64,000 bases of DNA. Source: an uncultured Eubacteriales bacterium. GTDB taxonomy: Bacteria > Bacillota > Clostridia > Christensenellales > Aristaeellaceae. The stretch's first letter is position 1, and every line of letters begins with the position of its first letter. Positions 1,045 through 63,606 of this stretch are shown here, one piece after another. Below the pieces are notes generated by a model that had not been told where the DNA came from, did no database searches, and saw only the letters and a program-made list of their open reading frames with translations. Position numbers and translations under genes: made by a program. The stretch spans positions 29,886-93,885 of the forward strand of contig CADAPM010000023.1 of the NCBI GenBank assembly GCA_902789795.1, given 5' to 3'.

Positions 1045-1215
1045 AGTGTGAAGGGTGGAGTGTGGAGAGTGGAGTTGCGGTAGAAACGCCTCCGGCGTTT
1101 CGAACTATGGCAGATGATTGATGCTCTATGATTCAGAAGTCTCTGCCAGACGCGAGGGATAACCGCCATCATCAACATTGTTTAACTCCACTCTCCACTC
1201 TTCACACTCCACACT
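1045..1215. repeat. Heptad-arm inverted-repeat element A
   Basis: Two 32-nt arms, 1045-1076 and 1184-1215, face each other as an imperfect inverted repeat. Each arm is built from 7-base units of the form AGWGTGG. The 107-nt core carries a perfect 8-bp stem (GAAACGCC, loop TCC, GGCGTTTC) at 1083-1101. It fills most of the gap between the transporter ATPase gene and the tRNA pair and contains no convincing gene. The same architecture recurs at 27878, 34650, 43982 and, as one half, at 63527. Confidence 0.8.
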
Positions 1216-1246
1216 GATCCAAAAGAATAGTGAAAAGTACAAAAAG

Positions 1247-1270
1247 AAAAAGCCGCTTACGCGACTTTTT
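1247..1270 (-). terminator. Rho-independent terminator of the tRNA pair
   Basis: On the minus strand a 10-bp stem (AAAAAGTCGC, loop GTAA, GCGGCTTTTT) contains one G-U wobble that pairs only in minus-strand RNA. It is followed by CTTTTTG and lies 5 nt after the CCA end of tRNA-Glu. Confidence 0.8.
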
Positions 1271-1275
1271 CTTTT

Positions 1276-1351
1276 TGGCACCCCCAATGGGATTCGAACC
1301 CATGTTTCCGCCTTGAGAGGGCGGCGTCCTAGGCCTCTAGACAATGGAGGC
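1276..1351 (-). tRNA. tRNA-Glu (anticodon CTC)
   Basis: The 76-nt minus-strand sequence folds as a full cloverleaf. The anticodon stem CCGCC/GGCGG encloses the loop CTCTCAA, giving anticodon CTC, which reads GAG. The T-arm contains GGGTTCGAATCCC, and the CCA end is encoded at 1276-1278. It lies 3 nt downstream of tRNA-Gln, so the two are cotranscribed. The CTC anticodon is the less universal glutamate isoacceptor and fits the GAG-rich codon use of this genome. Confidence 0.93.
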
Positions 1352-1354
1352 AAA

Positions 1355-1429
1355 TGGCTGGGGAACAAGGATTTTGAACCTTGACAATACGAGTCAGAGT
1401 CGTAGGTGCTGCCGTTACACCATTCCCCA
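1355..1429 (-). tRNA. tRNA-Gln (anticodon CTG)
   Basis: The 75-nt minus-strand cloverleaf has acceptor arms TGGGGAA and TTCCCCA with an encoded CCA. The anticodon stem TACGA/TCGTA encloses CTCTGAC, giving anticodon CTG, which reads CAG. The T-arm reads AAGGTTCAAAATCCTT. It is first in a two-tRNA transcript with tRNA-Glu. Confidence 0.93.
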
Positions 1430-1494
1430 ATCCCTGTGAGCTCACTCACAGGCGATATTATATCCGCAATCGGGCCATCTGTCAAGCTTTTTTT

Positions 1495-2418
1495 TCAGCC
1501 TGTGAAACGGGATAAAAACGCCGTCAGCGTCTCGCGGTACAGGTCCGGCTGCTTCAGCGCCGATTCCGCATGACCCGCGCCGGGGATCAGCTTCAGCTCG
1601 CTCCCCTCCCCCGCCGCGCGGTACAGCGCCTCGCTGTGGGCGGGCAGGATAAAGCTGTCTTCCGCGCCGTGGATGAACAGGATCGGCACATGCTCCTGCT
1701 TCAGGCTCTCGATGGGGCGCATCTGCGCATAGCTGTAGCCATAGCGCAGCCTGGCGCACACGGAGGCCACCCGCACCATGAAGGCCGGCATGTGCATGCT
1801 TTTCAGGCCGCCCTCCAGCACGGGCACAATATCGCTGAAGGCGCAGTCCGCCACCGCAAAGGTGATATCCGGCTGATAGCGAAGGCACGCAACGGTGGAC
1901 GCCGCGCCCAGGGACTCGCCATGGAGGCCCAGCACCCCGTAGCCCGGGAAGCGGGACCGGGTATCCCGGACCAGGGCCGCCAGATCCCGGCTTTCCCGGA
2001 TGGAGTAGGTGCAGAAGGTCGCCTCGTTGGCGCCGTGGCCGCGCAGGTCATAGACGATCACGTCATAGCCCAGATCGAGATAGTTTTTCGCGTACTTGAG
2101 CGCGCCGAAGCGGTTGTCGGTGTACCCGTGGGAGATGATCACCGCCCGGTCCGCCGGTTTGGGATTCACGAGCCGCTGCACATGCAGCACATACCCGTCC
2201 TCCGCGGTTACGGTGTAGTCCTCTTTCTGCAGCGCGTCGTACCAGGACAGGTCGTAATGAGCCTCCTGCCACTTCCGGGCCTCCTCCAGCGTCTGGCGGC
2301 GGATGCCCATGGAAAAGCCGGCCATCTTCCAGCCGGCCGCGAACAGCGCCGCCAGCAGGATCAGCAGAACAACGATCACGATCACCATCATTTTTCTCCG
2401 TTTCATTCGTTCACCCAT
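1495..2418 (-). CDS. Membrane-anchored alpha/beta hydrolase
   Basis: This is a serine hydrolase of the alpha/beta fold, about 307 residues from the chosen start (MGERMKRRK). A single N-terminal hydrophobic segment (VIVIVVLLILLAALFAAGW) should anchor it in the membrane with the catalytic domain outside. The nucleophile elbow is GLHGESLGAAS; the acid is probably the aspartate in HGAEDSF and the base the histidine in GAGHAES. The order and spacing match YqkD-like hydrolases. The longer reading frame begins inside the upstream glycerophosphodiesterase gene, so a start at 2418 or 2406 is preferred; the ribosome binding site is weak for either. The two genes lie close together on one strand and may form a lipid-metabolism pair. 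The substrate is unknown. Confidence 0.8.
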   Translation of the reverse strand: MGERMKRRKMMVIVIVVLLILLAALFAAGWKMAGFSMGIRRQTLEEARKWQEAHYDLSWYDALQKEDYTVTAEDGYVLHVQRLVNPKPADRAVIISHGYTDNRFGALKYAKNYLDLGYDVIVYDLRGHGANEATFCTYSIRESRDLAALVRDTRSRFPGYGVLGLHGESLGAASTVACLRYQPDITFAVADCAFSDIVPVLEGGLKSMHMPAFMVRVASVCARLRYGYSYAQMRPIESLKQEHVPILFIHGAEDSFILPAHSEALYRAAGEGSELKLIPGAGHAESALKQPDLYRETLTAFLSRFTG

Positions 2419-2443
2419 GCAGCCATTATTGGCTCCGCCGGGG

Positions 2444-3268
2444 TCAGGGCCGATCCTCCCTCGGGATAAAGCCTTCAAAGATCTGGATCTCATAGCGGGC
2501 CTTGAGCCCATCCATCTGCTCCTGGGAGCGCACCGTCCAGGCCGCCCAATGGGCCGGGAACAGCCGCAGCAGGCGCAGGGGCAGGCTGTGGTCCGTCACC
2601 GCCTCGGCGGCGATAAAGTCCGGCCGGGTCAGCACGTTCATGATCTGCGAGGCCAGCAGGCGGAACAGCGGCGCTTTCGGCCTCTTCGAGGGCTTGACCA
2701 GCCCAAAGGTCAGCTGTCCCCGCCGCACCTCGGGGCGGTGCTTCCGGAACCACCGGACCGCCCGGGGGTCGAAGCTCTCGACCATGTACAGGCCGTCATA
2801 GGCCTCCAGGCGCTGGCTGACCATGGAGCACAGCTGCTCGATCCGGGGATTAGACTTGATCTCCACCAGCAGCGGCACGCGGCCATGGACGGCCTCCAGG
2901 AACTCGTCGAAGGTGGGGATCACGCAATCTGTGTTCCCGAGGCGCAGGGCGCGCAGCTCGGCCAGGGTGCAGTCCGCGACCTTCCGGCTGTCGCCGCACA
3001 TGCGCGTGAGCTCATTGTCATGGAAGACCACCAGCCGGTCATCCCGGGTCAGGTGCACATCCATCTCGATGCCGTAGCCCCGCTCCGCCGCCGCGCGGAA
3101 GGCGGGCAGGCTGTTTTCAGGCCGCTCCTCGTTCCACAGCCCGCGGTGAGCGTACCAGTGGCCCGTCAGGGCGGACATATCCCGCCGCCCGAACCGCGGC
3201 GCGATCAAGTATAGATAGAACAGACACAGGCCAAAAAGGATCAATAATAGACCTATCCAGATGCTCAA
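2444..3268 (-). CDS. Glycerophosphodiester phosphodiesterase family protein
   Basis: The enzyme should hydrolyse glycerophosphodiesters to glycerol-3-phosphate and an alcohol. After one N-terminal transmembrane segment it shows the GDPD signature: HRG at the start, then RPENSLPAF, IEMDVHLTRD and LVVFHDNELTR, which supply the metal and catalytic residues. The frame is open to 3295. A TTG at 3268 preceded by AGAGGAAAG is the better start and puts the transmembrane segment at the extreme N-terminus. It lies upstream of an alpha/beta hydrolase with a gap of a few bases, suggesting coordinated turnover of membrane or teichoic-acid lipids. That joint role is inference. Confidence 0.88.
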   Translation of the reverse strand: MSIWIGLLLILFGLCLFYLYLIAPRFGRRDMSALTGHWYAHRGLWNEERPENSLPAFRAAAERGYGIEMDVHLTRDDRLVVFHDNELTRMCGDSRKVADCTLAELRALRLGNTDCVIPTFDEFLEAVHGRVPLLVEIKSNPRIEQLCSMVSQRLEAYDGLYMVESFDPRAVRWFRKHRPEVRRGQLTFGLVKPSKRPKAPLFRLLASQIMNVLTRPDFIAAEAVTDHSLPLRLLRLFPAHWAAWTVRSQEQMDGLKARYEIQIFEGFIPREDRP

Positions 3269-3405
3269 AGTTCTTTCCTCTTCCAAACAAAACAAGTCTT
3301 AAAGCTAACCGTTATTATGCGGTTGTGATTGAGCTAAACCCGTAAGTTCTTTTCTGAATTTGTAAACCAGCACATTATTTGAGTACTATGAGCGTTATCG
3401 ACACA

Positions 3406-6400
3406 TCAATCACGTTTTTCTGATACTATAATAACTTTATCATCACAGGTTATTTCACATATCGACCGATTAATAATATACATCAGTTTAGTGCATTCAT
3501 CAAACGCATCATCTGCAACTGATTGACATAAAGCTGGTATTATAACAACTTGACAATCTGTTGATGAAAATGCATTTGACTCTATTTCAATAAGTCCCTC
3601 TGGAAGCTGCATTACATTCATTTCTGAAAGTACGGGGATTATTCCAATGACCTTCTTTTGCTGCATGAATGCCTGATTCTCAAATTCATTGCTCTCGTAA
3701 TAATACTCTATCGGCTCATTCATAGAAAGCGCTTCGATCAATAATCCTGATACCGTTACTGTCTCTGTTTCACTGATCGTATTGTCAATACTTCTGACTC
3801 TTGTGGCGGTAACTGTACTATTGTCTTCTGACCATGTATACTCGGGTTCCCCCCACGCGCCAAGACAGATGACAATTAACGGTTTAACCATTTCCGCATA
3901 GCCACCAATTGCATTACCCGCATAATTTATGCTCACTTCGCTCCACTGTTGCTCGTCACCCTCATAGTAAATCGGCCAATCAGGTTGATTATAATTATCA
4001 AAAGCCATGAAACTATAATCTACTAGGCTCAATGGAATCGTCATAGAAGAAATGGCATGACATTGATCAAATGAACCATAAGCAATGTGTAATGTACCAT
4101 CTGGAATAGAATAATTTGCAGCTACTCTTCCCGATGGATAAACCAATAAAGCAGAATCCGCCTTTCTGAACAATACACCATCAATAGAGTAATAACTAGG
4201 ATTACTATTCTGTACATCTATGGCGGTAAGGCTGCTACATGCTGCAAATGCAAAATTTCCGATTTCAACAACACCCTTAGGAATTAAAATGGATTCTAAA
4301 CAAGTACATCTTGAAAATGCACCATATCCAATATGAGTTAGACCTCTGCCAAGAGTAATTCTTGTCAGTTTTTTATCCGAGGCAAATGCCCAGGAACCAA
4401 TGCTCTTAACGCTATCCGGCACTACACATTCAATTATTCCACATGAACTAAATGCATTTGCTTCAATTATCTCCAGACCTTCTGATAGCGCTATAGAAGT
4501 CAGGTTAGTGCAGCTATCAAATGCTCTTTCTTTAATTGTTTTCACACTACCTGGGAGAACGACCGAACTGAGACCATAGCATTCCTGAAACAATGCTCCT
4601 TCAATACTAACGACACCTTCTGGGCAAACAAACTCACCTAAAAAGTTAGGCGGAACAAGAACGATGCTCGTCATATCTCGGCTGTATACTATACTATCAA
4701 TAGAAACATAATGCGGATTCTCTTCATCAACAATTATTGAAGACAAAGCTTCGCATTTTGTAAACGGATTGTTTCCGATTACTGATAAGCTAGCAGGCAA
4801 ATAAACAGTTTTTAAATTGTAACTATAATAAAATGCACTATCGCCAATAGAGACGACATTATCTCCAATAATGACCTCGCTTAAGCCATCACACCGATAG
4901 AAAGCATATTTCCCAATTGAACGTACCGTATCCGAGAAAACTATCTTTGTTATTCCTGTACCCTCAAATGCATAATCGCAAATTATTTCCACGCCATCAG
5001 GAATAGTATATTCGCCCTGATAGCCGTTTGGACAGGAAATCAAGGATTTTGCATCATTGCTGAACAAGACCCCATCAATAGAACGATATGATGTATTACC
5101 CTCTGAAACATTGATACTGGTTAACTCATAACAGTTAACAAAAACACTCGTTCCATCTATACTTACAACACTAGCAGGTATCGTTATTGCTTTGAGCTTC
5201 CAACAACTGTAAAAAGCAAAGTCTTCTATATATTTGACCCCATTCTCAACAATAATCGTTTGAGCATTAATACACTCATTAAAGCAGCCTAAGCCTATTC
5301 TTTCTACATGAGACGGGATCACGATTTCCGTTAAACTATGACAAGACTTAAAAGCCTGCTGGCCCAATACTGTAACAGTGGTCGGTAGGACGAACTGTTG
5401 CAGGTTGATGCATCCGTCGAATGCATTATCACCAACATTAGTTATCCCTTTTCCAATGCGAACGTCATTGATGCTTTCAATATATGGATACCAAGGAAGC
5501 TGATCGCTGGTAACATAGTTTCTCATGTGACCGATGCCGTATATCGTTAACACGCCTTGATCATCAAATTTCCAACATGCGTTATCACTATACTCTACGC
5601 TGTATCCTTCTTCATCTAATGTCCAGCTTTTAGCATCACCGCAATAGCCAGAGTCGATTATCACTTCGCCCATCTTAATAATCGCTAATTCATGTGGCGA
5701 ATATTGTCTCAGTGTATTCTCATCATAGGTATAAGATATTTCACCTCCGTTTGTTATAAAATCATGCTTACTCGAACAATCCCAATTATTGCATTTTGTC
5801 AATAACAATTGATCAGGATTGCCAATAGTTCCTTCGTCAATATTCGTCACATCTACCAAATAGTTATTTCCGTCTTCTAATTTGACGACATTCCACATAT
5901 GAGCGCCTTCACCAGTCCCGCCGCTCATCGTACCCGTTACAGTAATCACACTGATGTTGCCCGAAAAAGAGGAAATATTAAACAAGTATTGGAAAGCTTT
6001 GGCGTACCCCTCGCAAACAACATTTGTATTTGAATTCCCATCAAATACCCATATAATCTGCCAGGGATTACCGTAATGAGTCTCATTACCCAATGCTTCA
6101 AAATTGTAGCTCGTCAATGAACAAATCTCATTGGCATATCCAGTTAACCTATCACGATCTGACGCATCTGCATACTTATTAACGATAGTACTCGCGTTAG
6201 CAGCGGCATTTTTCGCACTCTGTCCAAACATCGTATCACACTGGTATTCATTACCATCCAATGCGTAATCAGATGAAACACAGAAGGATGCTGTAATATT
6301 ACCAACAATAAAAATGGTTTCACCGTCTGTATTGATGCTGCTTGGATACTCAATCGTGATACCCATAGTTTTATCGTACCAGTATAACTCATACGGGCAA

Positions 6401-6897
6401 TCTAGCAATAAAGCTGATATAACCGGATCAATATCAAAACAGATAATGCTGTTGATAGCATTAATGGCGTCTTGGGTAAAATCTCCTGTCTCATCTAAAA
6501 TAGCATCAATACCAAGATCAACAGCTTTGTACTCAGTACTCTCATAAACGTCTGCTGCATCATAACTCATAATTGTGGATGACCTTGTTCCGTTCGCAAC
6601 AGCAGATATATCTTCACGTAATAGTGTATATAGATTCAACAATGTGCCCTTCAGTTTTGTTCCTTGCATTGCTTTTGCTTTTAGTGTTCTATGCTGCTTA
6701 AGGGGCATAACACTCCTAATATAGTCAGATGCAAGTTGTTCGTTATTATCCAGATTATTTGTTGAATAAACTCGATTTTTACTTGGCAACTCTACTGTCA
6801 CGGTATTATCAGCGTCAGCATAAGTAACCGTACACAGAAATGATATAAGCAAAATAATCATTATAACGCAACCTTGTTTCATTCTTGCAGATACCAT
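3406..6897 (-). CDS. Large secreted BspA-type leucine-rich-repeat protein with transglutaminase-like domain
   Basis: This 1163-residue protein has an N-terminal signal peptide (hydrophobic core VIMIILLISFLCTV). A transglutaminase/papain-like core follows, with likely catalytic Cys295 (VVCEGYAKA), His333 (GAHMWNVV) and Asp349 (LVDVTN). From about residue 450 onward it carries many BspA/TpLRR repeats of the form IGxxAFxxCxxLxxxxxPxxVxxI, interrupted by spacers of the form SIDGVLF. No LPXTG motif or C-terminal anchor is visible, so it is probably secreted. An AAAGGGG ribosome binding site supports the start. The gene is much richer in AT, and in A/T-ending codons, than every neighbour, suggesting acquisition from another lineage. 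Known BspA-type proteins bind host or cell surfaces; the role here is unproven. Confidence 0.9.
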   Translation of the reverse strand: MVSARMKQGCVIMIILLISFLCTVTYADADNTVTVELPSKNRVYSTNNLDNNEQLASDYIRSVMPLKQHRTLKAKAMQGTKLKGTLLNLYTLLREDISAVANGTRSSTIMSYDAADVYESTEYKAVDLGIDAILDETGDFTQDAINAINSIICFDIDPVISALLLDCPYELYWYDKTMGITIEYPSSINTDGETIFIVGNITASFCVSSDYALDGNEYQCDTMFGQSAKNAAANASTIVNKYADASDRDRLTGYANEICSLTSYNFEALGNETHYGNPWQIIWVFDGNSNTNVVCEGYAKAFQYLFNISSFSGNISVITVTGTMSGGTGEGAHMWNVVKLEDGNNYLVDVTNIDEGTIGNPDQLLLTKCNNWDCSSKHDFITNGGEISYTYDENTLRQYSPHELAIIKMGEVIIDSGYCGDAKSWTLDEEGYSVEYSDNACWKFDDQGVLTIYGIGHMRNYVTSDQLPWYPYIESINDVRIGKGITNVGDNAFDGCINLQQFVLPTTVTVLGQQAFKSCHSLTEIVIPSHVERIGLGCFNECINAQTIIVENGVKYIEDFAFYSCWKLKAITIPASVVSIDGTSVFVNCYELTSINVSEGNTSYRSIDGVLFSNDAKSLISCPNGYQGEYTIPDGVEIICDYAFEGTGITKIVFSDTVRSIGKYAFYRCDGLSEVIIGDNVVSIGDSAFYYSYNLKTVYLPASLSVIGNNPFTKCEALSSIIVDEENPHYVSIDSIVYSRDMTSIVLVPPNFLGEFVCPEGVVSIEGALFQECYGLSSVVLPGSVKTIKERAFDSCTNLTSIALSEGLEIIEANAFSSCGIIECVVPDSVKSIGSWAFASDKKLTRITLGRGLTHIGYGAFSRCTCLESILIPKGVVEIGNFAFAACSSLTAIDVQNSNPSYYSIDGVLFRKADSALLVYPSGRVAANYSIPDGTLHIAYGSFDQCHAISSMTIPLSLVDYSFMAFDNYNQPDWPIYYEGDEQQWSEVSINYAGNAIGGYAEMVKPLIVICLGAWGEPEYTWSEDNSTVTATRVRSIDNTISETETVTVSGLLIEALSMNEPIEYYYESNEFENQAFMQQKKVIGIIPVLSEMNVMQLPEGLIEIESNAFSSTDCQVVIIPALCQSVADDAFDECTKLMYIINRSICEITCDDKVIIVSEKRD

Positions 6898-6961
6898 ATT
6901 ATACCCCTTTCTATAAACACATCAGCGTTATATTCCTCGCGGTTAGATAATGCTCTTGAGT

Positions 6962-6990
6962 ATTTTAACACAATACCGATATTTAGTCTA
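6962..6990 (-). promoter_or_regulatory. Candidate sigma-A promoter of the AT-rich LRR gene
   Basis: On the minus strand TAGACT and TAAAAT are separated by 17 nt, about 65 nt before the ATG at 6897. The region is AT-rich, so some chance matching is expected. Confidence 0.45.
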
Positions 6991-7018
6991 CTTGTTTCAA
7001 ATAATCTTAGTCATATCA

Positions 7019-7061
7019 CAAAAAAAGCGTCACTTTCATTTGCAACACGAAAGCAACGCTT
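7019..7061 (-). terminator. Rho-independent terminator after the MMPL gene
   Basis: A minus-strand stem of about 13 bp (AAGCGTTGCTTTC pairing with GAAAGTGACGCTT, including two G-U pairs) is followed by seven T residues. It ends the tyrS/purR/MMPL transcript just beyond the MMPL stop codon. Confidence 0.8.
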
Positions 7062-7071
7062 CGATCATTGT

Positions 7072-10049: not shown

Positions 10050-10121
10050 GGTATACCTCCATGTCCTGCCCTGTCCCGGGTGAGCCGCAGAGGCTGCAAG
10101 CCCCTGCGGCGTAGATTGCTG

Positions 10122-24095: not shown

Positions 24096-24096
24096 A

Positions 24097-27739: not shown

Positions 27740-27768
27740 ATTATATATCCTTTTTTACAGAATTGCAA
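27740..27768 (-). promoter_or_regulatory. Strong sigma-A promoter of the S10-spc-alpha operon
   Basis: Minus-strand TTGCAA and a perfect TATAAT (within ATATATAAT) are separated by exactly 17 nt. The upstream DNA is rich in A and T tracts, like an UP element. It drives about 16 kb of translation genes. Confidence 0.88.
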
Positions 27769-27877
27769 GTGTTTTTCAGATGTATTTTGAAATTTTTCTG
27801 ATATTTTTTGACGAAAAACACCGATATTACTGCATTTTTGGATGGAGGCATTATACGTTGCGCCGGGCGTTTAATTT

Positions 27878-28050
27878 AATGAGGAATTAGGAATGAGGAA
27901 TGAGGAGTTCAGGTGCAAATGCCGCCGCTTCGCTCTGGCATTTGTTCGATTGTATATCGCGCGTAGCGCCGCAACAATCGAAGAATACTCCGTAACGCAG
28001 TGGAGGAGTTTCTTCCTGAACTCCTCACTCCTCATTCCTAACTCCTAACT
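27878..28050. repeat. Heptad-arm inverted-repeat element B
   Basis: The 36-nt arms at 27878-27913 and 28015-28050 are imperfect inverted repeats made of 7-base units such as GAGGAAT and TAGGAAT. Both end toward the core in TTCAGG. The core has stems such as CAAATGCC/GGCATTTG and CGATTGT/ACAATCG. The right arm overlaps the stop codon of the recombinase gene. The rest of the rpsJ-recombinase gap is the operon promoter and AT-rich DNA. Confidence 0.8.
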
Positions 28051-29143
28051 ATTTTTCTTCCTCTTCTTCCTTTTTATCTTCCACTTTCGGTAACACAGCC
28101 CGGCGGGCGGCCTGCCGCTTGTGCTCCTCGCTCATGGCGGCGTAGTGGCGGCGGGTGGTGTTCACGTCCGTGTGGCCGAGCACGTCCGCTACCAGGTAGA
28201 TGTCTCCCGTCTCCTGATAGAGGTTCGTGCCGAAGGTGCTGCGCAGCTTGTGGGGGCTTAACCGCTTTTTGAGCGGCGCGGCGACCAGGGCATATTTCTT
28301 GACCAGGTTCTCCACCGCCCGCTGGGTGATCCGGCGCTTCTGCAGGGACAGAAAGAGCGCGTCCTCGTGTCCCGGCAGCGGCTCGATCTCCGAGCGCTCC
28401 TCCATGTACCGCTTCAGAGCCTCCCCTACCTGGTCCGGATAATACAGGATGGTCTGGTTCCCGCCCTTGCGGGTGACCTGGAAAGCGTTGTCCTCAAAAT
28501 CGATATCACTGATATTGATGCCCACCAATTCGCTCACACGGATGCCCGTGCCCAGGAACATGAGCAGGATCGCCACGTCCCGCCGGGCGGTCTTCCGGTT
28601 GGAGGCCTGCTGGCGCGCGGTCAGTCCCTCCCCCGATTCGGCGCTGGCCAGCATCTTCACCATTTCCTCGTAGTCCAGGCGCAGGATGGGCTTCTCGTGC
28701 AGCTTGGGCAGGGTGACCAGGGTCGCGATGTTGGCGGGGATGTGGCCGCTTTTGAACAGGTATTCGAACAGCGAGCGCAGGGAGCACAGCTTGCGCATGA
28801 TGCCCAGCTCGTGGTTCTGCATCAGGGAGTCGTCCCGGGTGAAGTACTGGCTCAGGTAGTCCTGGAAGCCCTCGATGTCCCGAGCCTTCAGGCGGCTCAG
28901 CTCCTGATCCCCGATCAGGGGGATGCTCAGCTCGGCGAAATCTCCGTTCTCCTTCTGCAGATAATCAAAGAACAGCCGGTAGTCATAGGCATAGGCCAGG
29001 CGCGTCAGGGTGCTGGTGGTATGCTGGATCGACCGGAAAAAGTCCGTGCACACCGCCGGCAGCTCCCGCTCCAGCTGCCGCAGGCGCTCGTTCCGGCGGA
29101 TGTCCTGCTGGGTCTTGTAATCGGCTTTCTGCTGATAGGGCAT
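28049..29143 (-). CDS. Xer-like tyrosine recombinase
   Basis: This 364-residue site-specific recombinase has an N-terminal SAM-like core-binding domain (residues 20-140) and a catalytic domain from about 160. Catalytic residues are visible in order: Arg in GTGIRVSELVG, Lys in VTRKGGNQT, His and Arg in SPHKLRSTFGTNLY, His in LGHTDVNTT and the nucleophile Tyr in RRHYA. The length exceeds XerC/XerD (about 300) by an N-terminal extension and an acidic/lysine tail. The stop codon lies inside repeat element B. A XerC/D chromosome-dimer role or a relative acting on mobile DNA are both possible. No nearby att or dif site was recognised. Confidence 0.88.
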   Translation of the reverse strand: MPYQQKADYKTQQDIRRNERLRQLERELPAVCTDFFRSIQHTTSTLTRLAYAYDYRLFFDYLQKENGDFAELSIPLIGDQELSRLKARDIEGFQDYLSQYFTRDDSLMQNHELGIMRKLCSLRSLFEYLFKSGHIPANIATLVTLPKLHEKPILRLDYEEMVKMLASAESGEGLTARQQASNRKTARRDVAILLMFLGTGIRVSELVGINISDIDFEDNAFQVTRKGGNQTILYYPDQVGEALKRYMEERSEIEPLPGHEDALFLSLQKRRITQRAVENLVKKYALVAAPLKKRLSPHKLRSTFGTNLYQETGDIYLVADVLGHTDVNTTRRHYAAMSEEHKRQAARRAVLPKVEDKKEEEEEK

Positions 29144-34649: not shown

Positions 34650-34804
34650 AAGGTTGAAGGGTGAAGGTTGAAGATTGAAGGTTTAAAGTAGGAAGGAGAA
34701 AGTAGGAAGTAGGAAGTGATTAATGTTCCGCTGTTACGGATGCCCGGAAGGACAGAAAAGCAAAAGTAGAATTACTTCCTACTTCCTACCTCCTACTTCC
34801 TACC
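34650..34804. repeat. Heptad-arm inverted-repeat element C
   Basis: The arms at 34687-34721 and 34770-34804 (35 nt) are imperfect inverted repeats of the 7-base unit GTAGGAA. A second block of heptads based on GAAGGTT, 34650-34686, extends the left side. The 48-nt core has no strong stem. The right arm supplies the last codons and the TAG stop of the methyltransferase gene. Confidence 0.8.
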
Positions 34805-35383
34805 TGTGCACTTTAAGATCCAAAAGCCTTTTTTCCGTTCGATCAGCTCCACGGAGTTAAAAAGCGTTTCCAAGTACTTTTTCGCGCTCTCAGCGCCCTG
34901 CTGCTTGCGGATGACCAGGTAGAGAGCGCCATTTTCGGCCAGGTGATCCCGCGCCTCCTGAAAGAGCCGGTAGATCACCGCCTTGCCCGCCCGGATGGGA
35001 GGGTTGGTCACGATGGTATCAAAGGTGCCTGTGAGCGCGGAAAAGCCGTCGCTTTCGACCACTATGCCGGACACGCCGTTGCGCTTCAGGTTTTCCCGGG
35101 TCAGGGCCAGGGCGCGCTCGTTCACGTCGCTCTGGGTCAGTTCCACCCGGTTGGCCTTGCCGATGCTCACGCCGATGACCCCCGCGCCGCAGCCCAGGTC
35201 CAGCACCCGTCCGCTGAGCTCCGGCAGGCTGTTGAGCAGCAGGGCCGAGCCCTCGTCCACTTCCCCCCGGGAAAAGACGCCACTGTCCGTCATCAGCCGC
35301 AGCGTGTGTCCCCGATAAGAGAACTCCGTTTCCACCGGCCTGCTCTCAGCGCTGGGCTGTTTTGCAAAATACTGTTCCGCCAT
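34793..35383 (-). CDS. RsmC-like class I SAM-dependent methyltransferase
   Basis: This 196-residue protein has the SAM-binding motif VLDLGCGAGVIGV and the catalytic NPPIRAGK, similar to the NPPFH of RsmC/RlmG guanine-N2 methyltransferases. The N-terminus (SYRGHTLRLMTDSGVFSRG) matches short Firmicutes members, which lack the first RsmC domain. It follows rsuA, another rRNA modification gene, by a few bases. The final three codons and the TAG lie in repeat element C. The rRNA target is inferred. Confidence 0.88.
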   Translation of the reverse strand: MAEQYFAKQPSAESRPVETEFSYRGHTLRLMTDSGVFSRGEVDEGSALLLNSLPELSGRVLDLGCGAGVIGVSIGKANRVELTQSDVNERALALTRENLKRNGVSGIVVESDGFSALTGTFDTIVTNPPIRAGKAVIYRLFQEARDHLAENGALYLVIRKQQGAESAKKYLETLFNSVELIERKKGFWILKCTGRK

Positions 35384-43950: not shown

Positions 43951-43982
43951 AACAGGGCTGCCCGTTGGACAGCCCTGTTTTA
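43951..43982 (+). terminator. Terminator after the carboxypeptidase gene
   Basis: A perfect 10-bp stem AACAGGGCTG/CAGCCCTGTT ends in TTTT. Repeat element D begins at its last base. Confidence 0.85.
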
Positions 43983-44102
43983 GTGTGGAGGGTGAAGAGT
44001 GGAGAGTGGAGTGGCGGTCGAAACTCTTCGCCTGCGGCTCAGAGTTTCTTTGATTTTATTTCACATCCGTAACTCCACTCTTCACACTCCACTCTCCACA
44101 CT
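43982..44102. repeat. Heptad-arm inverted-repeat element D
   Basis: The 31-nt arms at 43982-44012 and 44072-44102 are inverted repeats built of AGWGTGG heptads, the same unit as element A. The core has the stem GAAACTCT/AGAGTTTC (44020-44048) followed by TTTGATT. The right arm touches the TAA stop codon of prmC. It fills the whole gap between two convergent genes. Confidence 0.82.
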
Positions 44103-53699: not shown

Positions 53700-53722
53700 A
53701 GTGACCTCCTTCTTGTCGATCC

Positions 53723-53734: not shown

Positions 53735-53759
53735 AAACATGTACGTTTTATACTCTTGA

Positions 53760-54968: not shown

Positions 54969-55005
54969 GCTTTTCCCTCCTCTGCGACCGCCTTTTTTCT
55001 GTAAG

Positions 55006-55034
55006 ATTATACAGGAATTCTGCGCTCCCCGCAA
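55006..55034 (-). promoter_or_regulatory. Promoter of the LRR gene at 53760-54968
   Basis: Minus-strand TTGCGG and perfect TATAAT are 17 nt apart. It is divergent from the GH43 promoter 43 nt away. Confidence 0.75.
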
Positions 55035-55076
55035 GAGATTTATTGTCCGAAAGCATCAGCAGAACAAAACAGCGCA

Positions 55077-55105
55077 TTGCCGATCCGGCGGCGGTATGCT
55101 ACAAT
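55077..55105 (+). promoter_or_regulatory. Promoter of the GH43 gene
   Basis: TTGCCG and TACAAT are 17 nt apart, 32 nt before the start codon, with AAAGGAG between. Confidence 0.7.
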
Positions 55106-55137
55106 AGGCCTGAAGAAATTTGCAAAGGAGCTGTGCT

Positions 55138-56487: not shown

Positions 56488-56516
56488 GGAGGATAACCCC
56501 TCCTCCTTTAATTTTT
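56486..56516 (+). terminator. Terminator between the convergent GH43 and LmbE genes
   Basis: The stem GAGGAGG/CCTCCTC is followed by CTTTAATTTTT. It should end GH43 transcripts. The LmbE reading frame, as written, runs through it in the other direction. Confidence 0.75.
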
Positions 56517-57720: not shown

Positions 57721-57777
57721 GTTCTCCCTCTTGTCACGCAAAATGGCTCTGCCATCCGTCTTTGGAATGACAGAGCC

Positions 57778-57806
57778 ATTATAACCGGAATCAGCGGAAC
57801 GGTCAA
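57778..57806 (-). promoter_or_regulatory. Promoter of the LmbE gene with overlapping inverted repeat
   Basis: Minus-strand TTGACC and perfect TATAAT are 17 nt apart. A perfect 10-bp inverted repeat, AATGGCTCTG (57742-57751) and CAGAGCCATT (57771-57780), overlaps the -10 and the start site and could be an operator. Confidence 0.75.
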
Positions 57807-57845
57807 CGGTAGCCTGTTCTGGTTCTGAAGTACAAATAAAGCATC

Positions 57846-57874
57846 TTGAAAATCTGGGGTTTTGCGTGTACAAT
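57846..57874 (+). promoter_or_regulatory. Promoter of the first aldo/keto reductase gene
   Basis: TTGAAA and TACAAT are 17 nt apart, divergent from the LmbE promoter and about 65 nt before the start codon. Confidence 0.7.
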
Positions 57875-57938
57875 AATATTCGTTGGAAGAAAAAACACTA
57901 AGAACACAGCGGAACGATCCGGCGAAGGAGGAAACAGC

Positions 57939-59069
57939 TTGCTGAGCGAACAGGAGATCAAAAGCATCCGGAAGCTGGGCTTCGGGCTCATGCGGCTGCC
58001 GAAGCTCGAAGACGGCAGCATGGATATCGAGCAGATCAAGCAGATGGTGGATCTGTTCCTGGAAAGCGGATTCACGTACTTTGATACCGCCTTCGTGTAC
58101 GACGGCGGCAAGTCCGAGGAAGCGGCGCGGGACGCCCTGGTCCGCAGGCACCCCCGGCAGAGCTTCCAGCTGGCCACCAAGCTGAACGCCCGGGTCGCCG
58201 CCAATCGTGAGGACGCTGAAAATCAGCTCCTGACCAGTCTGGAGCGCACCGAGGCCGGATATTTCGACTTCTATCTCCTCCACGCCATCGGCACGGGCAA
58301 CCTGCCACTGTACAATGAGTATAAGATCTGGGACTACGCCAAAAAGGCGAAGGCCGACGGCCTCGTCAAACACTGGGGCTTCTCCTTCCACGACAGCCCC
58401 GAGCTGTTGGAAAAGCTGCTGAACGAGCACCCGGACGCGGAGTTCGTGCAGCTGCAGATCAACTACGCCGACTGGGAGGACAGCCGGGTCGCCTCCCGGC
58501 GCTGCTACGAGATCGCCCGCGCCCACGGCAAGCCCGTCGTGGTCATGGAGCCGGTCAAGGGCGGCACCCTGGCCAACCCGCCCCAGCGCGTGCGTGACGT
58601 GCTGGCCGCGGTAGAGCCCGACTCCTCCCCCGCGTCCTGGGCCGTGCGCTTCACCGCCGACCAGGAGGGCATCCTGACGGTGCTGTCCGGCATGTCCAAC
58701 CTGGACCAGATGAAGGACAACCTGAAGACCATGGGCGGCTTCACCCACTTTACCGAGGCCCAGAAGACGGCGGTGGAGCAGGCGCGACAGGCGCTGCTCA
58801 GCGTGGACAGCATCGGCTGCACGGGCTGCCGCTACTGCGTGGACGGATGCCCCATGAACATCCCGATCCCGGGCATCTTCTCCTCCATGAACCAGCTGCT
58901 GATCTACGACGACGCCGTTTCCGCCCGCCGGCGCTACCAGAACAACGTGAAGGATCGCGGCCGGGCGTCGGACTGCATCGCCTGCGGCCAGTGCGAAGGC
59001 GCGTGCCCCCAGCAGCTGCCCGTGATCGAGCTGCTCAAAAAGTGCGCGGGCGCCCTCGAAACAGAATGA
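57939..59069 (+). CDS. Aldo/keto reductase with C-terminal ferredoxin-type 4Fe-4S domain (copy 1)
   Basis: This 376-residue protein joins an aldo/keto reductase barrel to two iron-sulfur motifs. The barrel shows LGFGLMRLPKLEDGS, FDTAFVYDGGKSEEA with the active-site tyrosine, KHWGFSFHDSPE and QLQINYADWE. The cysteine motifs are CTGCRYCVDGCPMNIPIP and CIACGQCEGACPQQLP. Such fusions are common in anaerobes, and the electron partner is unknown. A TTG start at 57939, eight bases after GGAGG, is preferred to the upstream ATG. It is closely similar to the gene at 62360. Confidence 0.9.
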   Translation: MLSEQEIKSIRKLGFGLMRLPKLEDGSMDIEQIKQMVDLFLESGFTYFDTAFVYDGGKSEEAARDALVRRHPRQSFQLATKLNARVAANREDAENQLLTSLERTEAGYFDFYLLHAIGTGNLPLYNEYKIWDYAKKAKADGLVKHWGFSFHDSPELLEKLLNEHPDAEFVQLQINYADWEDSRVASRRCYEIARAHGKPVVVMEPVKGGTLANPPQRVRDVLAAVEPDSSPASWAVRFTADQEGILTVLSGMSNLDQMKDNLKTMGGFTHFTEAQKTAVEQARQALLSVDSIGCTGCRYCVDGCPMNIPIPGIFSSMNQLLIYDDAVSARRRYQNNVKDRGRASDCIACGQCEGACPQQLPVIELLKKCAGALETE

Positions 59070-59136
59070 CATGACGTCCTGACGGCAGCATCTGCCGCCG
59101 GGCCCACAAGATTACAAAGCAGGGAGGGAAACCCTT

Positions 59137-60045
59137 ATGAAAACGACACTTCTGATCATGGCGGCCGGGCTGGGCTCCCGGTACGGCGGCAACAAGCAGA
59201 TCGACCGCATCGGCCCCCACGGCGAGATCCTGATGGAATACTCCATCTATGACGCGCTGCAGGCGGGCTTTGACAAGGTGGTCTTCGTCATCCGCCAGTC
59301 CATGGCCGAGGTCTTCCGCCAGATGATCGGCGACAGGATCGCCAAGAAGGTGGAGGTCCACTACGTGTTCCAGGAGTACGACAGTCTGCCCGGCGGCTTC
59401 ACCGCGCCGGAGGGCCGCACCAAGCCCTACGGCACCGTGCACGCGGTGCTGGCGGCCAAGGATGTGATCCATGAGCCCTTCGCCGTCATCAACGCGGACG
59501 ATTACTACGGCAAGGACGCCTTCCGCGCCATGGCCGACTGCCTGCACCGCATGCAGGGCGAGCGGGAGAAGGCCTCCATGGTCGCCTACTACCTGAAGAA
59601 CACCATTTCCGAAAACGGCACCGTGACCCGCGGCGTCTGCGATACGGACGCAGCCGGCCACCTGATCAAGGTCACGGAGACCTACAAGATCAAGCGCGAC
59701 ACCGACGGCGTGATCAAGGACTTTGAGAACGATCCCGCCGGCGTGCCTCTGAAAGAGAACGCCCTGGTCTCCATGAATTTCTGGGGCTTCACGCCCTGGT
59801 ACTTCGAGACGGCGGAGGCCCATTTCGAAGCCTTCCTGAAGGATCCTTCCGGCGACCCGATGAAGAAGGAATACGTGCTGCCCGCGCTGGTGGACCAGCT
59901 GATGCACGAGACCCACATGCCCGTCGAGGTGCTGGAGACCAACGCCGTGTGGTTCGGCATCACCTATCACGAGGACAAGGCCACCGTGCAGGATGCTTTG
60001 AAGGCCCTGCATGACCAGGGCGACTATCCCGAAAGCCTGGATTGA
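59137..60045 (+). CDS. Sugar-phosphate nucleotidyltransferase family protein
   Basis: This 302-residue protein has the nucleotide-binding signature LIMAAGLGSRYGGNKQIDRI and the metal-binding NADDYYGKDAF. These are the features of sugar-1-phosphate nucleotidyltransferases, though the second half is atypical for RfbA/GalU. The product may be an NDP-sugar for envelope glycans; the sugar is unknown. AGGGAGGG precedes the ATG. A GNAT gene follows within two bases and the two are probably coupled. Confidence 0.85.
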   Translation: MKTTLLIMAAGLGSRYGGNKQIDRIGPHGEILMEYSIYDALQAGFDKVVFVIRQSMAEVFRQMIGDRIAKKVEVHYVFQEYDSLPGGFTAPEGRTKPYGTVHAVLAAKDVIHEPFAVINADDYYGKDAFRAMADCLHRMQGEREKASMVAYYLKNTISENGTVTRGVCDTDAAGHLIKVTETYKIKRDTDGVIKDFENDPAGVPLKENALVSMNFWGFTPWYFETAEAHFEAFLKDPSGDPMKKEYVLPALVDQLMHETHMPVEVLETNAVWFGITYHEDKATVQDALKALHDQGDYPESLD

Positions 60046-60046
60046 C

Positions 60047-60553
60047 ATGAGGTTTCAGGAACTGCCAAGGCCGGAATTTGCCGGCGGTGAACTCAGATAC
60101 ATCTTTGACACCTCCTCCTGCTATGTTCCCGGCTTCAGCCAGGAGGGGGACAGATTTGCGCTGTCCCTGTCGCCCGTCGCCATGCCGCGGCAGCACGTGG
60201 ACTACATCACGCGCATCTATGACCCGCGCCTGATCGAGCCCCGGGTCGTGACCCTGATCGACAACGCGGGCGAACGGGTGGGCTATCTGGAGCTGGCCCG
60301 GGAGCACGACGGCCGGATCGCCCGGATCACCAACCTCTTGGTGGAAGACGGGTACCGCCGCCGCGGCTACGGCTCCCTGCTGATCTCCCGGGCCCGGACC
60401 ATGGCGAAGGCGGACGGCGCGGGATCCCTGCGCGCTTACGTTTCCGGTATCAACGCGGGGGCCGTGCGCTTCCTGCTGGGCCAGGGGATGAGCCTGGTGG
60501 GCTTCAGCACCTATGAGGACGAGCTGATGCTGGAGCTGGGGATGAAGGTATAA
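60047..60553 (+). CDS. GNAT-family N-acetyltransferase
   Basis: This 168-residue protein has the acetyl-CoA-binding motif in EDGYRRRGYGSLLISRA, the usual R/Q-x-x-G-x-G/A loop of GNAT enzymes, and a late GINAGAVRFLLGQGM. The first 60 residues are not recognisable. The start ATG lies two bases after the stop of the nucleotidyltransferase gene, suggesting a joint role such as amino-sugar acetylation. That is inferred from position. A terminator follows. Confidence 0.85.
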   Translation: MRFQELPRPEFAGGELRYIFDTSSCYVPGFSQEGDRFALSLSPVAMPRQHVDYITRIYDPRLIEPRVVTLIDNAGERVGYLELAREHDGRIARITNLLVEDGYRRRGYGSLLISRARTMAKADGAGSLRAYVSGINAGAVRFLLGQGMSLVGFSTYEDELMLELGMKV

Positions 60554-60560
60554 GCTTATA

Positions 60561-60600
60561 AGGGGCTGTTTGCGAGGCTGTGCAGCAGCTCCTGTTTTTT
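60561..60600 (+). terminator. Terminator after the GNAT gene
   Basis: An 8-bp stem AGGGGCTG/CAGCTCCT (one G-U pair) is followed by GTTTTTT. Confidence 0.75.
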
Positions 60601-60647
60601 GCCCATCGTTTCCCGATACGAACCGCAGAACAGGAGGAGTGACTGAC

Positions 60648-62345
60648 ATGAAAAAGATCCTATTTCTATCCATCCTTGCCCTCTGTCTCTGTGCCCTGAC
60701 CGTCGCCTCCGCCCAGGACTTCACCCTGAACTCCAAGCACCGGATCACCGAGTATACCGGGGCGGGCGGAGAGGTGACCATCCCCGCCGAGATCGACGGC
60801 GAGGCCGTCTGGGCCGTGGACCGCAAGGCGTTCATGAACAACGGCAAGATCACCGCCCTCACCCTCGAGCCGGGCGTGCAGTACCTGGGAAACTCCGCCA
60901 CCTACAAGATGACCGCGCTGGAAAAGCTGACGCTGCCGGAGGGCTTCGGGGCCCTGGAGGACGCGAACTTCAACGGCTGCCCGAAGCTGACCGAGGTCAC
61001 GCTGCCCTCCACCCTGGCCTACATCGGGGACAGCTGCTTCTCCTTTGACAATGCCCTCCGCACGGTCACCTTCACAGGCCCCGCCCCGGCGGTGGACGTA
61101 GGCGCGTTCCGGTCCCTGCCCGCGGACTTCACGGTGCTGGTGCCCGAAGGCTGGGAGGAGGTCTACCGCGCGACGCTGCCGGAGGGGCTCACTATCCGCT
61201 CCAGCGGGCAAGGGATCGTCCTGCCCGGGGAGACCCCGGCGGAAGAGTTCGATTTCGACACCTCCACCGGATGGATCCTGAAATACCTGGGCCATGCCGC
61301 CGCGGTGAACGTGCCCGCCGAGATCGACGGCGTGCCGGTGACCGACATCTTTGACTACGCTTTTGAGGACGCGGACAACACCTACCAGCTGACGCTGCCG
61401 GAGGGCATCACGGTGATCCCGGACAGCGCCTTCGCCTCCATGAACAGCCTGGAGCGGGTGATTCTGCCCGCCGGACTCAAAAAGATCGACCGCGAGGCCT
61501 TCAAGTACTGCGGCATGGCGGAGCTGCTTTTGCCCGCCTCCCTGGAAACGGTGGCCGGCCGCGCCTTCGCCTCCAGCAAGTTCGGCACCCTGTGCTTTGA
61601 AGGCACCGCCCTGCCCGAGTTCGCAAGCGACGCCTTCGAGGACGCGGAGATCCGCCGGGTATGCCTGGGCTGGGAAGCCACGGACGCGGAGCTGAGCGCC
61701 GCGGCCGACGCCCTCGCCGCCCTGGGCGTGACCGTCCCCGTGGAGCGGGCGGAGCACATCGTGATCCCGCAGCCCACGCCGGAACCGACCCCCGCACCGA
61801 CCCCGGAACCCACCGCCGAGCCGACGCCCGTGCCCACACCTGTACCCACGCCGGAACCGACCCCGGAACCCACAGCCGCACCGACGGCGGAGCCGGCCCA
61901 GCCCGTGTTCCCGGCCATGCGCGAGCCCAAGATCACCCTGCCTGCGGAAAAGCCGGCCCCGGCGGAGCGCATCCGTCCCGCTTTCCCGGCCACGCCGGAG
62001 CCCGTCATTTATCCGGTGCCCACCGAACAGCCCGCCGCGGAGCCGGAAGCGCCCGAAACAGGGCTGATCGACATCACCCCCTATCTCGGACACTGGAAGG
62101 GGGGCGCCGTGGCCACCAGCGGCGTGACCATCGATCCCGATCGGTTCGGCGGCCTCTCCCTGACCCTTAACGCGGACGGCACCGGTGAGCTCATCTACAT
62201 GAAGCGGTCCGACGGCGGCGCCGCCTGGCGCGTGGAGAACGACCAGGTGATCTACAATCGGACGCCGCTGGTGCTCCTGGAGGACGGCCAGCTGCGCTAC
62301 CAGACCTCAGAAACCGAATACATGCAGTTCATGCGCGAAGAATAA
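60648..62345 (+). CDS. Secreted LRR protein with Pro/Thr/Glu-rich spacer
   Basis: This 565-residue protein has a signal peptide (KKILFLSILALCLCALTVASA). Two BspA/TpLRR blocks follow (about residues 22-190 and 205-365), each starting with an ITEYTGAGGEVTIPAEIDG-like segment. Next comes a repetitive spacer of PTPEPTPAP-type units (about 385-430), of the kind that spans cell walls. The last 60 residues, GHWKGGAVATSGVTIDPDRF onward, look like a small lipocalin-like beta domain. There is no LPXTG motif. AGGAGG precedes the ATG. The antisense frames here are shadows of the repeat composition. Confidence 0.87.
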   Translation: MKKILFLSILALCLCALTVASAQDFTLNSKHRITEYTGAGGEVTIPAEIDGEAVWAVDRKAFMNNGKITALTLEPGVQYLGNSATYKMTALEKLTLPEGFGALEDANFNGCPKLTEVTLPSTLAYIGDSCFSFDNALRTVTFTGPAPAVDVGAFRSLPADFTVLVPEGWEEVYRATLPEGLTIRSSGQGIVLPGETPAEEFDFDTSTGWILKYLGHAAAVNVPAEIDGVPVTDIFDYAFEDADNTYQLTLPEGITVIPDSAFASMNSLERVILPAGLKKIDREAFKYCGMAELLLPASLETVAGRAFASSKFGTLCFEGTALPEFASDAFEDAEIRRVCLGWEATDAELSAAADALAALGVTVPVERAEHIVIPQPTPEPTPAPTPEPTAEPTPVPTPVPTPEPTPEPTAAPTAEPAQPVFPAMREPKITLPAEKPAPAERIRPAFPATPEPVIYPVPTEQPAAEPEAPETGLIDITPYLGHWKGGAVATSGVTIDPDRFGGLSLTLNADGTGELIYMKRSDGGAAWRVENDQVIYNRTPLVLLEDGQLRYQTSETEYMQFMREE

Positions 62346-62359
62346 GGGGGAACCTACAG

Positions 62360-63481
62360 ATGGAGCAGTACCTGGGCCAGGACATTTTCAAGCTCGGCTT
62401 CGGCCTCATGCGCCTGCCGAAGAACGCCGACGGCAGCATCGACATCCCGCAGGTCCAGGAGATGGCCGACCGCTTCCTGGCGGCGGGCGGCACCTATTTC
62501 GATACCGCCTACGTCTATGACAGCGGCGCGAGCGAAGCCGCCTTCAAGGCCGCCGTGGCGGACCGCTATCCGCGCGAGAGCTATGTGATCTGCACCAAGC
62601 TCTGCGCCTGGCAGCAGTGCCACGACGAGGAGAGCGCCAAGCAGCAGTTCTACACCAGCCTCGAGCGGACCGGCGCGGGCTATTTCGACTTTTATCTGCT
62701 GCACGCCCTGCAGCGGGCCAACTATAAAAAGTTTGACGAATACCACATCTGGGATTTCGTGGCTGACCTGAAAAAGCAGGGCCTGGTCAAACACTGGGGC
62801 TTCTCCTTCCACGCCGATCCCGAGCTGCTGGAAGAGCTGCTGGACGCCCATCCGGAGATCGACTTCGTCCAGCTGCAGATCAACTATGCCGACTGGGAGA
62901 ACCCGGGCGTGAACTCGCGCCGCAACTGGGAGATCTGCCAGGCCCACGGCAAGCCCGTGGTCATCATGGAGCCGGTCAAGGGCGGCGTGCTGGCAGACCC
63001 GATCCCCGAGGTCAAAGCGGTATTGGACCAGACCGGCAGCGGTCTGTCCTACGCCGGCTGGGCGCTGCGCTACGCCGCGAGCATCGGCGGCGTCATCACC
63101 GTGCTGAGCGGCATGAGCAATCTCGCCCAGATGGACGACAACCTGAGCTGCATGAAGGACTTCCGACCGCTGACTCAAGCCGAGCGCGGGGTCATCCGCG
63201 AGGCCCAGAAGGCCCTGGACGCGGACCGCTCCATCCCCTGCACCTCCTGCCGCTACTGCGTGAAGGGCTGCCCCATGGACATCCCGATCCCCGACATCTT
63301 CACCGTCTCCAACCGCAGCAAGGGCAGCGCCCACTTCCGCACCGTGCGCGAGTACAACGTGGTCACCCGGGGCAAGGGCCGCGCCAGCGACTGCATCCAG
63401 TGCCATCAGTGCGAGGACGCCTGCCCCCAGCAGCTGCCCATCATCCGCCTGCTGGAGGAGTGCCGGGCGCTGGAGCAGTGA
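62360..63481 (+). CDS. Aldo/keto reductase with C-terminal ferredoxin-type 4Fe-4S domain (copy 2)
   Basis: This 373-residue protein matches the copy at 57939 domain for domain: LGFGLMRLPKNADGSIDIPQ, FDTAYVYDSGASEA, KHWGFSFHADPELLEELL and INYADWE. It ends with iron-sulfur motifs CTSCRYCVKGCPMDIPIPD and CIQCHQCEDACPQQLP. It starts 14 nt after the LRR gene with a weak GGGGGAA site. The two copies probably arose by duplication and now differ in many positions, so they may have distinct substrates. The electron carrier and substrate are unknown. Confidence 0.9.
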   Translation: MEQYLGQDIFKLGFGLMRLPKNADGSIDIPQVQEMADRFLAAGGTYFDTAYVYDSGASEAAFKAAVADRYPRESYVICTKLCAWQQCHDEESAKQQFYTSLERTGAGYFDFYLLHALQRANYKKFDEYHIWDFVADLKKQGLVKHWGFSFHADPELLEELLDAHPEIDFVQLQINYADWENPGVNSRRNWEICQAHGKPVVIMEPVKGGVLADPIPEVKAVLDQTGSGLSYAGWALRYAASIGGVITVLSGMSNLAQMDDNLSCMKDFRPLTQAERGVIREAQKALDADRSIPCTSCRYCVKGCPMDIPIPDIFTVSNRSKGSAHFRTVREYNVVTRGKGRASDCIQCHQCEDACPQQLPIIRLLEECRALEQ

Positions 63482-63526
63482 GCGGTGCAACTCCTGACGA
63501 GCTGCTTAAAAGTATCCGTGAGACCA

Positions 63527-63606
63527 AGCGAGTGATAAGGAATGAGTGATAAGAGATAAGAGATAAGTGATAAGTTCAGGTGGAAACCGCGCTCAGGCGC
63601 GGTTTC
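63527..63606. repeat. Half heptad-arm element E
   Basis: A single left arm of GATAAGA/GATAAGT heptads (63527-63577) runs into TTCAGGTG and a perfect 10-bp stem GAAACCGCGC-TCAG-GCGCGGTTTC (63583-63606), followed by TTTGATT. The arm-core junction matches elements B and D, but no facing right arm was found. Confidence 0.75.

Follow-up and report, generated by a model that had tools for sequence, protein, structure and literature searches.

What are the five short intergenic features, each built on tandem heptamers, that recur along 64,000 nucleotides of DNA (the window, meaning this whole stretch) from contig CADAPM010000023.1 of an uncultured Eubacteriales bacterium? An earlier note had described an arm of 7-base repeats leading into a core and, at all but the last of five loci, an inverted arm following it. 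Our analysis indicates that these features are probably copies, lacking an open reading frame (ORF), of a widespread selfish mobile element that carries a gene for the four-helix-bundle protein S23p (PF05635, the 23S rRNA intervening-sequence protein) and is related to the intervening sequences of 23S rRNA. What was observed were the arms with their usual length and inversion, a gene-bearing form in the genus, an association with S23p genes in many phyla, and presence or absence between species.

All five copies were read directly in the window, and Tandem Repeats Finder reported period-7 arrays at each of them. The arm entering the core could be read in every copy as four heptamers and four bases, or 32 nt (limits set by us, from anchor to anchor), with 19 to 22 of 25 lag-7 matches. 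An inverted right arm of the same length, with 18 to 22 of 25 matches, closed copies 1 to 4; none was found at copy 5, whose array extended 14 nt beyond the 32-nt arm, outward to 63531. The heptamer unit varied from copy to copy. A GAAAC-stem-GTTTC hairpin was present in copies 1, 4 and 5, TTTGATT followed it in copies 4 and 5, and TTCAGGTG was present at the arm ends of copies 2 and 5. The architecture, the missing last arm, the changing unit and these core motifs were all as the earlier note had them. Its count of five was sound for the loci that it named and too low for the family, of which 60 clusters of arrays were found in the genome sample described below. Copy 3 also carries a second, different array (unit AAGGTTG) outside its arm. 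No ORF was present in the five copies, and their cores are too short for an S23p ORF. The copies lay between ORFs or beside a tRNA; an Rfam scan of the window returned two tRNAs only, and no copy lay in a 23S rRNA helix. When each was folded as RNA against 100 dinucleotide shuffles, the z-score was -7.6 for copy 1, -12.0 for copy 2 and -8.4 for copy 4. Copy 3 scored -9.5 without its outer array and -4.5 with it, and the one-armed copy 5 scored -3.2. The complementary ends of copies 1 to 4 are predicted by folding to form a long stem, for which copy 5 has one arm only.

When the own genome (G000) was scanned for lag matches over 807,352 bases (window included, 31% of 2.59 Mb), 83 period-7 arrays were detected, compared with none at any period in one order-3 Markov simulation, showing that the heptamer arrays are not due to chance. 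Periods 4, 5, 6, 8, 10 and 13 gave no array in the same sample, periods 9, 11, 12 and 15 gave one to four each, and period 14, a multiple of 7, gave 16. A 400-bp rule classed 38 of the 65 units as facing pairs, and single arrays without a partner also occurred. Random low-complexity DNA without inverted pairing, the possibility against which the proposed family had originally been set, does not account for these figures. With a slightly looser scanning window the arrays grouped into 60 clusters. Unit classes among 103 arrays were AGTGGAG (24), AAGTAGG (23), AGTGATA (23), AAGGTTG (9), AGTGAGG (9), AATTAGG (7), GGAATTC (6) and other (2). A home-made gene finder allowed 57 of the 60 clusters to be placed, 38 in co-directional, 15 in convergent and 4 in divergent gaps; six clusters shared more than 40 bp with a called gene. 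The gaps of at least 60 bp numbered 206 co-directional, 57 convergent and 68 divergent, 331 in total. Clusters were over-represented in convergent gaps (p = 0.031 against gaps of at least 20 bp) and under-represented in divergent gaps (with gaps of at least 60 bp as reference, p = 0.015; with those of at least 20 bp, p = 0.078).

A larger element (C11:17489-18057) holds an ORF that matched the Pfam family 23S_rRNA_IVP (PF05635) with an E-value of 9e-26. This was its sole Pfam match at E-values up to 0.1, and no transposase was among the matches. Six PF05635 genes were found in the genus, in five of eight genomes with the own genome included. Inverted heptamer arms flanked five of the six, and the remaining gene, in G005, had only an opposite-polarity pair, on one side. 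The classes closest to the five gene-bearing arms were AAGGTTG, AAGTAGG, AGTGAGG, AGTGGAG and AGTGATA. Gene-bearing elements share AGTGGAG with window copies 1 and 4, AAGTAGG with copy 3 and AGTGATA with copy 5, and the second-best class of copy 2, AGTGAGG (0.81), is also found on gene-bearing arms. As in a miniature inverted-repeat transposable element, the copies have their inverted ends in common with a gene-bearing parent, except for the best class of copy 2; the parent of such an element encodes a transposase, and that was not found here.

One site, between genes that we take to be uxaA- and eda-like, held three of the five gene-bearing copies, each in a different species and with a different unit. 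Either the unit changed in concert in both arms, or the site was hit repeatedly. With the first S23p protein at this site as reference, identity was 71 and 74% for the other two (the second compared only up to a stop) and 58 and 64% for the two other armed S23p proteins of the genus. The same site in G002 (L311 2161-2230) held one array and a hairpin-like stretch, with neither S23p ORF nor right arm, which is likely a one-armed, ORF-less remnant of a gene-bearing copy and perhaps a step in its decay. In G003 nothing was there. The S23p gene at this site in G007 (L156 about 1585-1800) has an in-frame stop, and both arms are present.

Comparison between species gave the same picture of sites with and without an element. 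The site of copy 4, the gap between a Peptidase_S11 gene and prmC, was empty in the genus mate G004 and held a GTAGGAA-class element in G002. At the copy 3 site, the paired heptamer element was absent from all seven genus mates, and G002 had one degenerate unpaired array. For two further elements of the own genome (C4:242529 and C17:32870), the corresponding gap of G004 was occupied by an element of a different class. Among the sites of the C8 sample, G002 lacked the element at one and G004 at another, and G004 held a different, longer element at a third. Both flanks were recovered for 4 of the 60 own clusters in the comparison with the G004 samples. Where a site was empty, both heptamers and core were missing. 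In these comparisons the copies behave as insertions. The earlier note had proposed a comparison of close strains; between related species, sites were found empty or holding another class, and the note's first suggestion, a non-autonomous mobile element, is well supported by this presence and absence, by the swap of class at the same site and by the gene-bearing version with the same arms. Related genomes also share the structure, since heptamer elements, including gene-bearing forms, were found in genus mates.

Beyond the genus, a scan with an alignment of the genus S23p proteins gave at least 587 relatives in named genomes, of which the best 80 were kept (the 80 named loci). These span Clostridia, Bacteroidota, Cyanobacteria, Spirochaetes, Ignavibacteria and others. 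A period-7 array lay within 400 bp of the gene at 79 of the 80 and on both sides at 57, compared with 2 two-sided cases in 891 random placements away from the gene in the same loci (any array, 133 of 891). Strict period-7 arrays numbered 141 near the S23p genes (88 kb) vs 57 in the remaining 363 kb, and periods 5, 6 and 8 to 12 gave none or one near the genes. The two arms were inverted at 53 of the 57 two-sided loci. Unit similarity averaged 0.82 between the arms of one locus and 0.55 between loci, and the within-locus value exceeded the 95th percentile of cross-locus values at 46 of 57. All 10 plasmid loci opened, our choice out of 25 matches, had arrays; like the named sample, they are biased toward relatives of the armed seeds. 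Loci were also fetched with the Pfam profile, and the gene was relocated by a profile (29 loci in the phylum, 28 in the own order). The phylum sample had arrays at 20 of 29 loci, two-sided at 16. The gene upstream of S23p was co-directional at 64 of 76 and the downstream gene at 57 of 75 assignable named loci by a crude longest-ORF rule, as was the upstream gene at 8 of 10 annotated plasmid loci. Such placement fits an element that dwells in transcripts, and also one that merely needs a host promoter.

Some plasmid S23p genes (L351, L354, L355, L356, L357) stood among defence genes, between hsdS and hsdR, between drmD and pglX, between helicase and methylase genes, or upstream of cas1. On the Dolichospermum plasmid (L354 2210-2773), further heptamer arrays lay a few hundred bases from the S23p gene.

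Among the 114 arms of the 57 two-sided loci the commonest length was 32 nt (17 exactly; 54 at 29-35 nt). Most of the 37 arms of 31-33 nt aligned as (ARTKNNN)x4 + ARTK, that is, as five four-base anchors separated by three-base linkers. The solved S23p relatives 2rld and 2gsc each consist of five chains of one sequence, and for a Xanthomonas member a toroidal homopentamer has been described (PMC4990558). Given five anchors per arm and a protein of five chains, one anchor bound per subunit is an attractive though tentative reading. The earlier note's alternative of a binding array for a dimeric protein may thus survive in spirit, with S23p as the likely partner, although the S23p relatives are five-chained rather than dimeric. 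S23p identity correlated weakly with unit similarity (r = 0.23, p = 0.0005 in 2000 permutations), as expected if protein and unit co-evolved; shared descent alone could also give this. Several S23p loci of the own order without heptamers had one short anchor (e.g., GTGATGT) repeated between small differing hairpins. At 17 such loci picked by us, the top 7-mer occurred on average 6.9 times near the gene vs 3.6 farther away. In G080, a pattern of three GTGATGT anchors gave 17 matches at the S23p gene and three other places, and the reversed pattern gave none. If the ring binds the anchors, a hairpin may act as a linker like the three bases. Anchor-hairpin arrays at S23p genes without heptamer arms were seen at L250, L251, L245, L249 and L260, and those of G080 are at G080:C2 188399, 219284, 300368 and 593171.

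The full form of the proposed element comprises a heptamer arm (typically 32 nt), in some cases a hairpin, the S23p gene, in some cases a second hairpin, and the inverted arm. An S23p ring would bind each arm, as RNA or as single-stranded DNA, through five anchors at three-base spacing, and the concrete contact predicted is one anchor per pentamer subunit. S23p made from gene-bearing copies would mobilise the ORF-less copies in trans. Tolerance of the copies may come from their position, which is mostly downstream of genes in gaps that are transcribed; RNase III could there excise the long stem from the transcript, as with 23S rRNA intervening sequences. Reverse transcriptase (PF00078) was found in a single one of the eight genus genomes, where it sat at the edge of a contig, and the own genome, of 88% completeness, gave none; a reverse transcriptase partner was therefore not proposed.

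Several results weigh against an S23p element. Warrier et al. deem S23p probably not expressed in their organism (PMC4990558). No target-site duplication was readable, the flanks of the empty sites being too diverged. The 80 named loci were selected by closeness to armed seeds, and the own-order sample had arrays at only 8 of 28 located PF05635 loci, two-sided at 2 (at one of these 8 the gene was placed with no better than E 0.8, and at a further, 29th locus it could not be placed). A universal link between PF05635 and heptamers was rejected on this count; heptamer arms at S23p genes are common and widespread, and not universal. Of the order's S23p-positive genomes, 20 were sampled (at most 20 kb each), and only 2 of them had dispersed arrays. 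Array density was 20 in 367 kb in these 20 genomes and 1 in 315 kb in S23p-negative genomes (from 1 of 20), which is too uneven for proof. In the genus, AATTAGG, the best class of copy 2 (0.88), was not the best class of any S23p gene, and only two of the unit classes of the own genome (88% complete) have an S23p gene in it.

In a first rival explanation, the arrays are independent host repeats or insertion targets, on which S23p genes and small hairpins merely land. Unpartnered arrays exist, arrays also occur away from the S23p gene (57 in 363 kb), and the small dispersed repeats of cyanobacteria, according to what Elhai reportedly wrote in 2008, are often embedded in heptameric repeats. However, the empty sites have neither heptamers nor core. 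The inversion of the arms (53 of 57) and their match within a locus, the two-sided arrays at 57 of 80 genes vs 2 of 891 random placements, and the length peak at 32 nt also speak against landing sites, and we regard this explanation as unlikely. It is rather unlikely, too, that the copies are RNA elements of the host, stem-loops retained because they terminate or shield transcripts or are processed by RNase III. They do fold strongly and avoid divergent gaps (4 of 57 clusters vs 68 of 331 gaps of at least 60 bp, at the p-values given above). However, most compared sites were not conserved between species, classes differed at shared sites, and host use explains neither the S23p association nor the arm length.

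REPINs moved by a RAYT (Y1) transposase were considered because many class A cores have two inverted hairpins and one Y1 gene was found in the own genome. That sole Y1 gene is flanked by a different repeat, GTAGGGGCGG..., which also occurs inside or beside two heptamer elements; RAYT and REPINs were rejected on this ground, and we hold them very improbable. No transposase was found with the arms, a co-occurrence that the earlier note had proposed to look for (transposase families other than Y1 were not searched). Upstream of the RAYT-like gene (L071 1263-1420; G000:C1 about 100106-100263) lies an inverted GTAGGGGCGG... pair, and a similar GTAGGGGCGG-type pair inside or beside the heptamer elements G000:C3:92155-92560 and G000:C7:56680-57000 marks a nested insertion. 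Equally remote is the idea, after Rehm et al. (2015), of simple repeats kept or grown through G-quadruplexes of four G-tracts, which the four-unit preference and inverted pairs of Xanthomonas would favor (PMC4692102). Four GG tracts were present in 18 of the 114 arms of the two-sided named loci, a count to which the window arms do not belong. However, four GGG tracts occurred in none and no GG at all in 70, and length and inversion were kept nonetheless, showing that G-quadruplexes are not a general cause of the arms. An S23p element remains our preferred explanation of the five copies, whose parts are listed in the table.

Table. Parts of the five heptamer-armed copies, in window positions
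Feature	Position	Strand	Basis
Copy 1 left arm, 32 nt, class AGTGGAG	1045..1076	+	direct reading, Tandem Repeats Finder, lag-7 match
Copy 1 core hairpin GAAACGCC-TCC-GGCGTTTC	1083..1101	+	folding
Copy 1 inverted right arm, 32 nt	1184..1215	-	direct reading, Tandem Repeats Finder, lag-7 match
Copy 2 left arm, 32 nt, class AATTAGG (0.88), next AGTGAGG (0.81)	27878..27909	+	direct reading, Tandem Repeats Finder, lag-7 match
Copy 2 core hairpin, after TTCAGGTG	27915..27945	+	folding
Copy 2 inverted right arm, 32 nt	28019..28050	-	direct reading, Tandem Repeats Finder, lag-7 match
Copy 3 additional outer array, unit AAGGTTG	34650..34683	+	direct reading, Tandem Repeats Finder
Copy 3 left arm, 32 nt, class AAGTAGG	34686..34717	+	direct reading, Tandem Repeats Finder, lag-7 match
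Copy 3 inverted right arm, 32 nt	34774..34805	-	direct reading, Tandem Repeats Finder, lag-7 match
Copy 4 left arm, 32 nt, class AGTGGAG	43982..44013	+	direct reading, Tandem Repeats Finder, lag-7 match
Copy 4 core hairpin GAAACTCT-loop-AGAGTTTC, then TTTGATT	44020..44048	+	folding
Copy 4 inverted right arm, 32 nt	44071..44102	-	direct reading, Tandem Repeats Finder, lag-7 match
Copy 5 sole arm, 32 nt, class AGTGATA	63545..63576	+	direct reading, Tandem Repeats Finder, lag-7 match
Copy 5 core hairpin GGAAACCGCGC-TCAG-GCGCGGTTTCT, then TTGATT	63582..63607	+	folding

Next to copy 2 (window 27750-27880 and 28049-29143) lie an A+T-rich stretch, which contains an imperfect 21-bp repeat, and a gene for a tyrosine recombinase (Phage_integrase). 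At window 61766-61899, a tandem repeat with periods of 12, 24 and 36 bp lies within the ORF 60570-62345. Two scans of viral_contigs with window proteins found no relatives.

Heptamers have been met before in other bacteria. The small dispersed repeats of Nostoc, which Elhai is said to have described in 2008, reportedly are short hairpins within heptamer tandem repeats, with mobility inferred. The short tandemly repeated repetitive sequences of cyanobacteria are further heptamer tandem repeats akin to the Nostoc case. We know of no work that tied either of them to S23p. On the protein side, the accessory protein Avd of diversity-generating retroelements is a pentameric four-helix-bundle protein structurally related to S23p. 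Avd works with structured RNA and a reverse transcriptase (PMC12875486), whereas no reverse transcriptase was found in seven of the eight genus genomes here. TAACTGA repeats of Beggiatoaceae and cyanobacteria are intergenic direct 7-mer repeats with many copies per genome (PMC4679880). They share with the present arrays the intergenic position and the copy number, but they are mostly unpaired and are read as possible regulatory sites; the main text of that paper contains none of the terms 'four helix', 'intervening sequence' and 'S23'. Two further heptamers, GGGAATC in Xanthomonas and GGGGA(T/C)T in Nostoc, are intergenic and prefer four units (Rehm 2015, PMC4692102). Convergent inverted pairs numbered 70 in one Xanthomonas genome and 75 in another, and the heptamers are rarer between divergent ORFs and lie near stop codons. 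The arrays described here are likewise intergenic, of four units, in inverted facing pairs, rare in divergent gaps and close to stop codons. By contrast, Rehm et al. discuss their heptamers as G-quadruplexes, generally unassociated with mobile elements, whereas most arms here are without GG; their main text lacks the terms 'four helix' and 'intervening'.

The earlier note had taken the paired-arm design for an undescribed family. That was in part too strong, given the inverted heptamer pairs of Xanthomonas (PMC4692102) and the heptameric repeats of one 23S intervening sequence (PMC4990558). What is new here is that the same heptamer arms often surround S23p genes, in many phyla, and no paper making this general connection was found in the open-licence literature searched. 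More tentatively, and with some doubt on our part, the copies may belong to a large unrecognized class of mobile elements that uses the ring protein S23p and itself encodes neither a transposase nor a reverse transcriptase. Its ends would be five-anchor wrap-around sites with three-base or hairpin spacing, and the intergenic heptamers of cyanobacteria, Xanthomonas and others and the 23S intervening sequences would all be members. If true, this would trace three puzzles to one origin, namely the unexplained heptamer repeats of bacteria, the way in which 23S rRNA intervening sequences spread, and what the widely annotated "four helix bundle protein" does.

The closest known system is the 23S rRNA intervening sequence of Coxiella. 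As described in PMC4990558, it has an S23p ORF in its loop, tandem heptameric repeats upstream of that ORF and a 28-bp terminal stem, and it is excised by RNase III. The copies described here differ in lying between genes, in being many per genome, in lacking the ORF within the window and in having heptamers in both arms, and RNase III excision, known for the Coxiella system, is only proposed for them. However, the two have in common inverted ends that form a stem, heptameric repeats and, in the gene-bearing copies, an S23p ORF.

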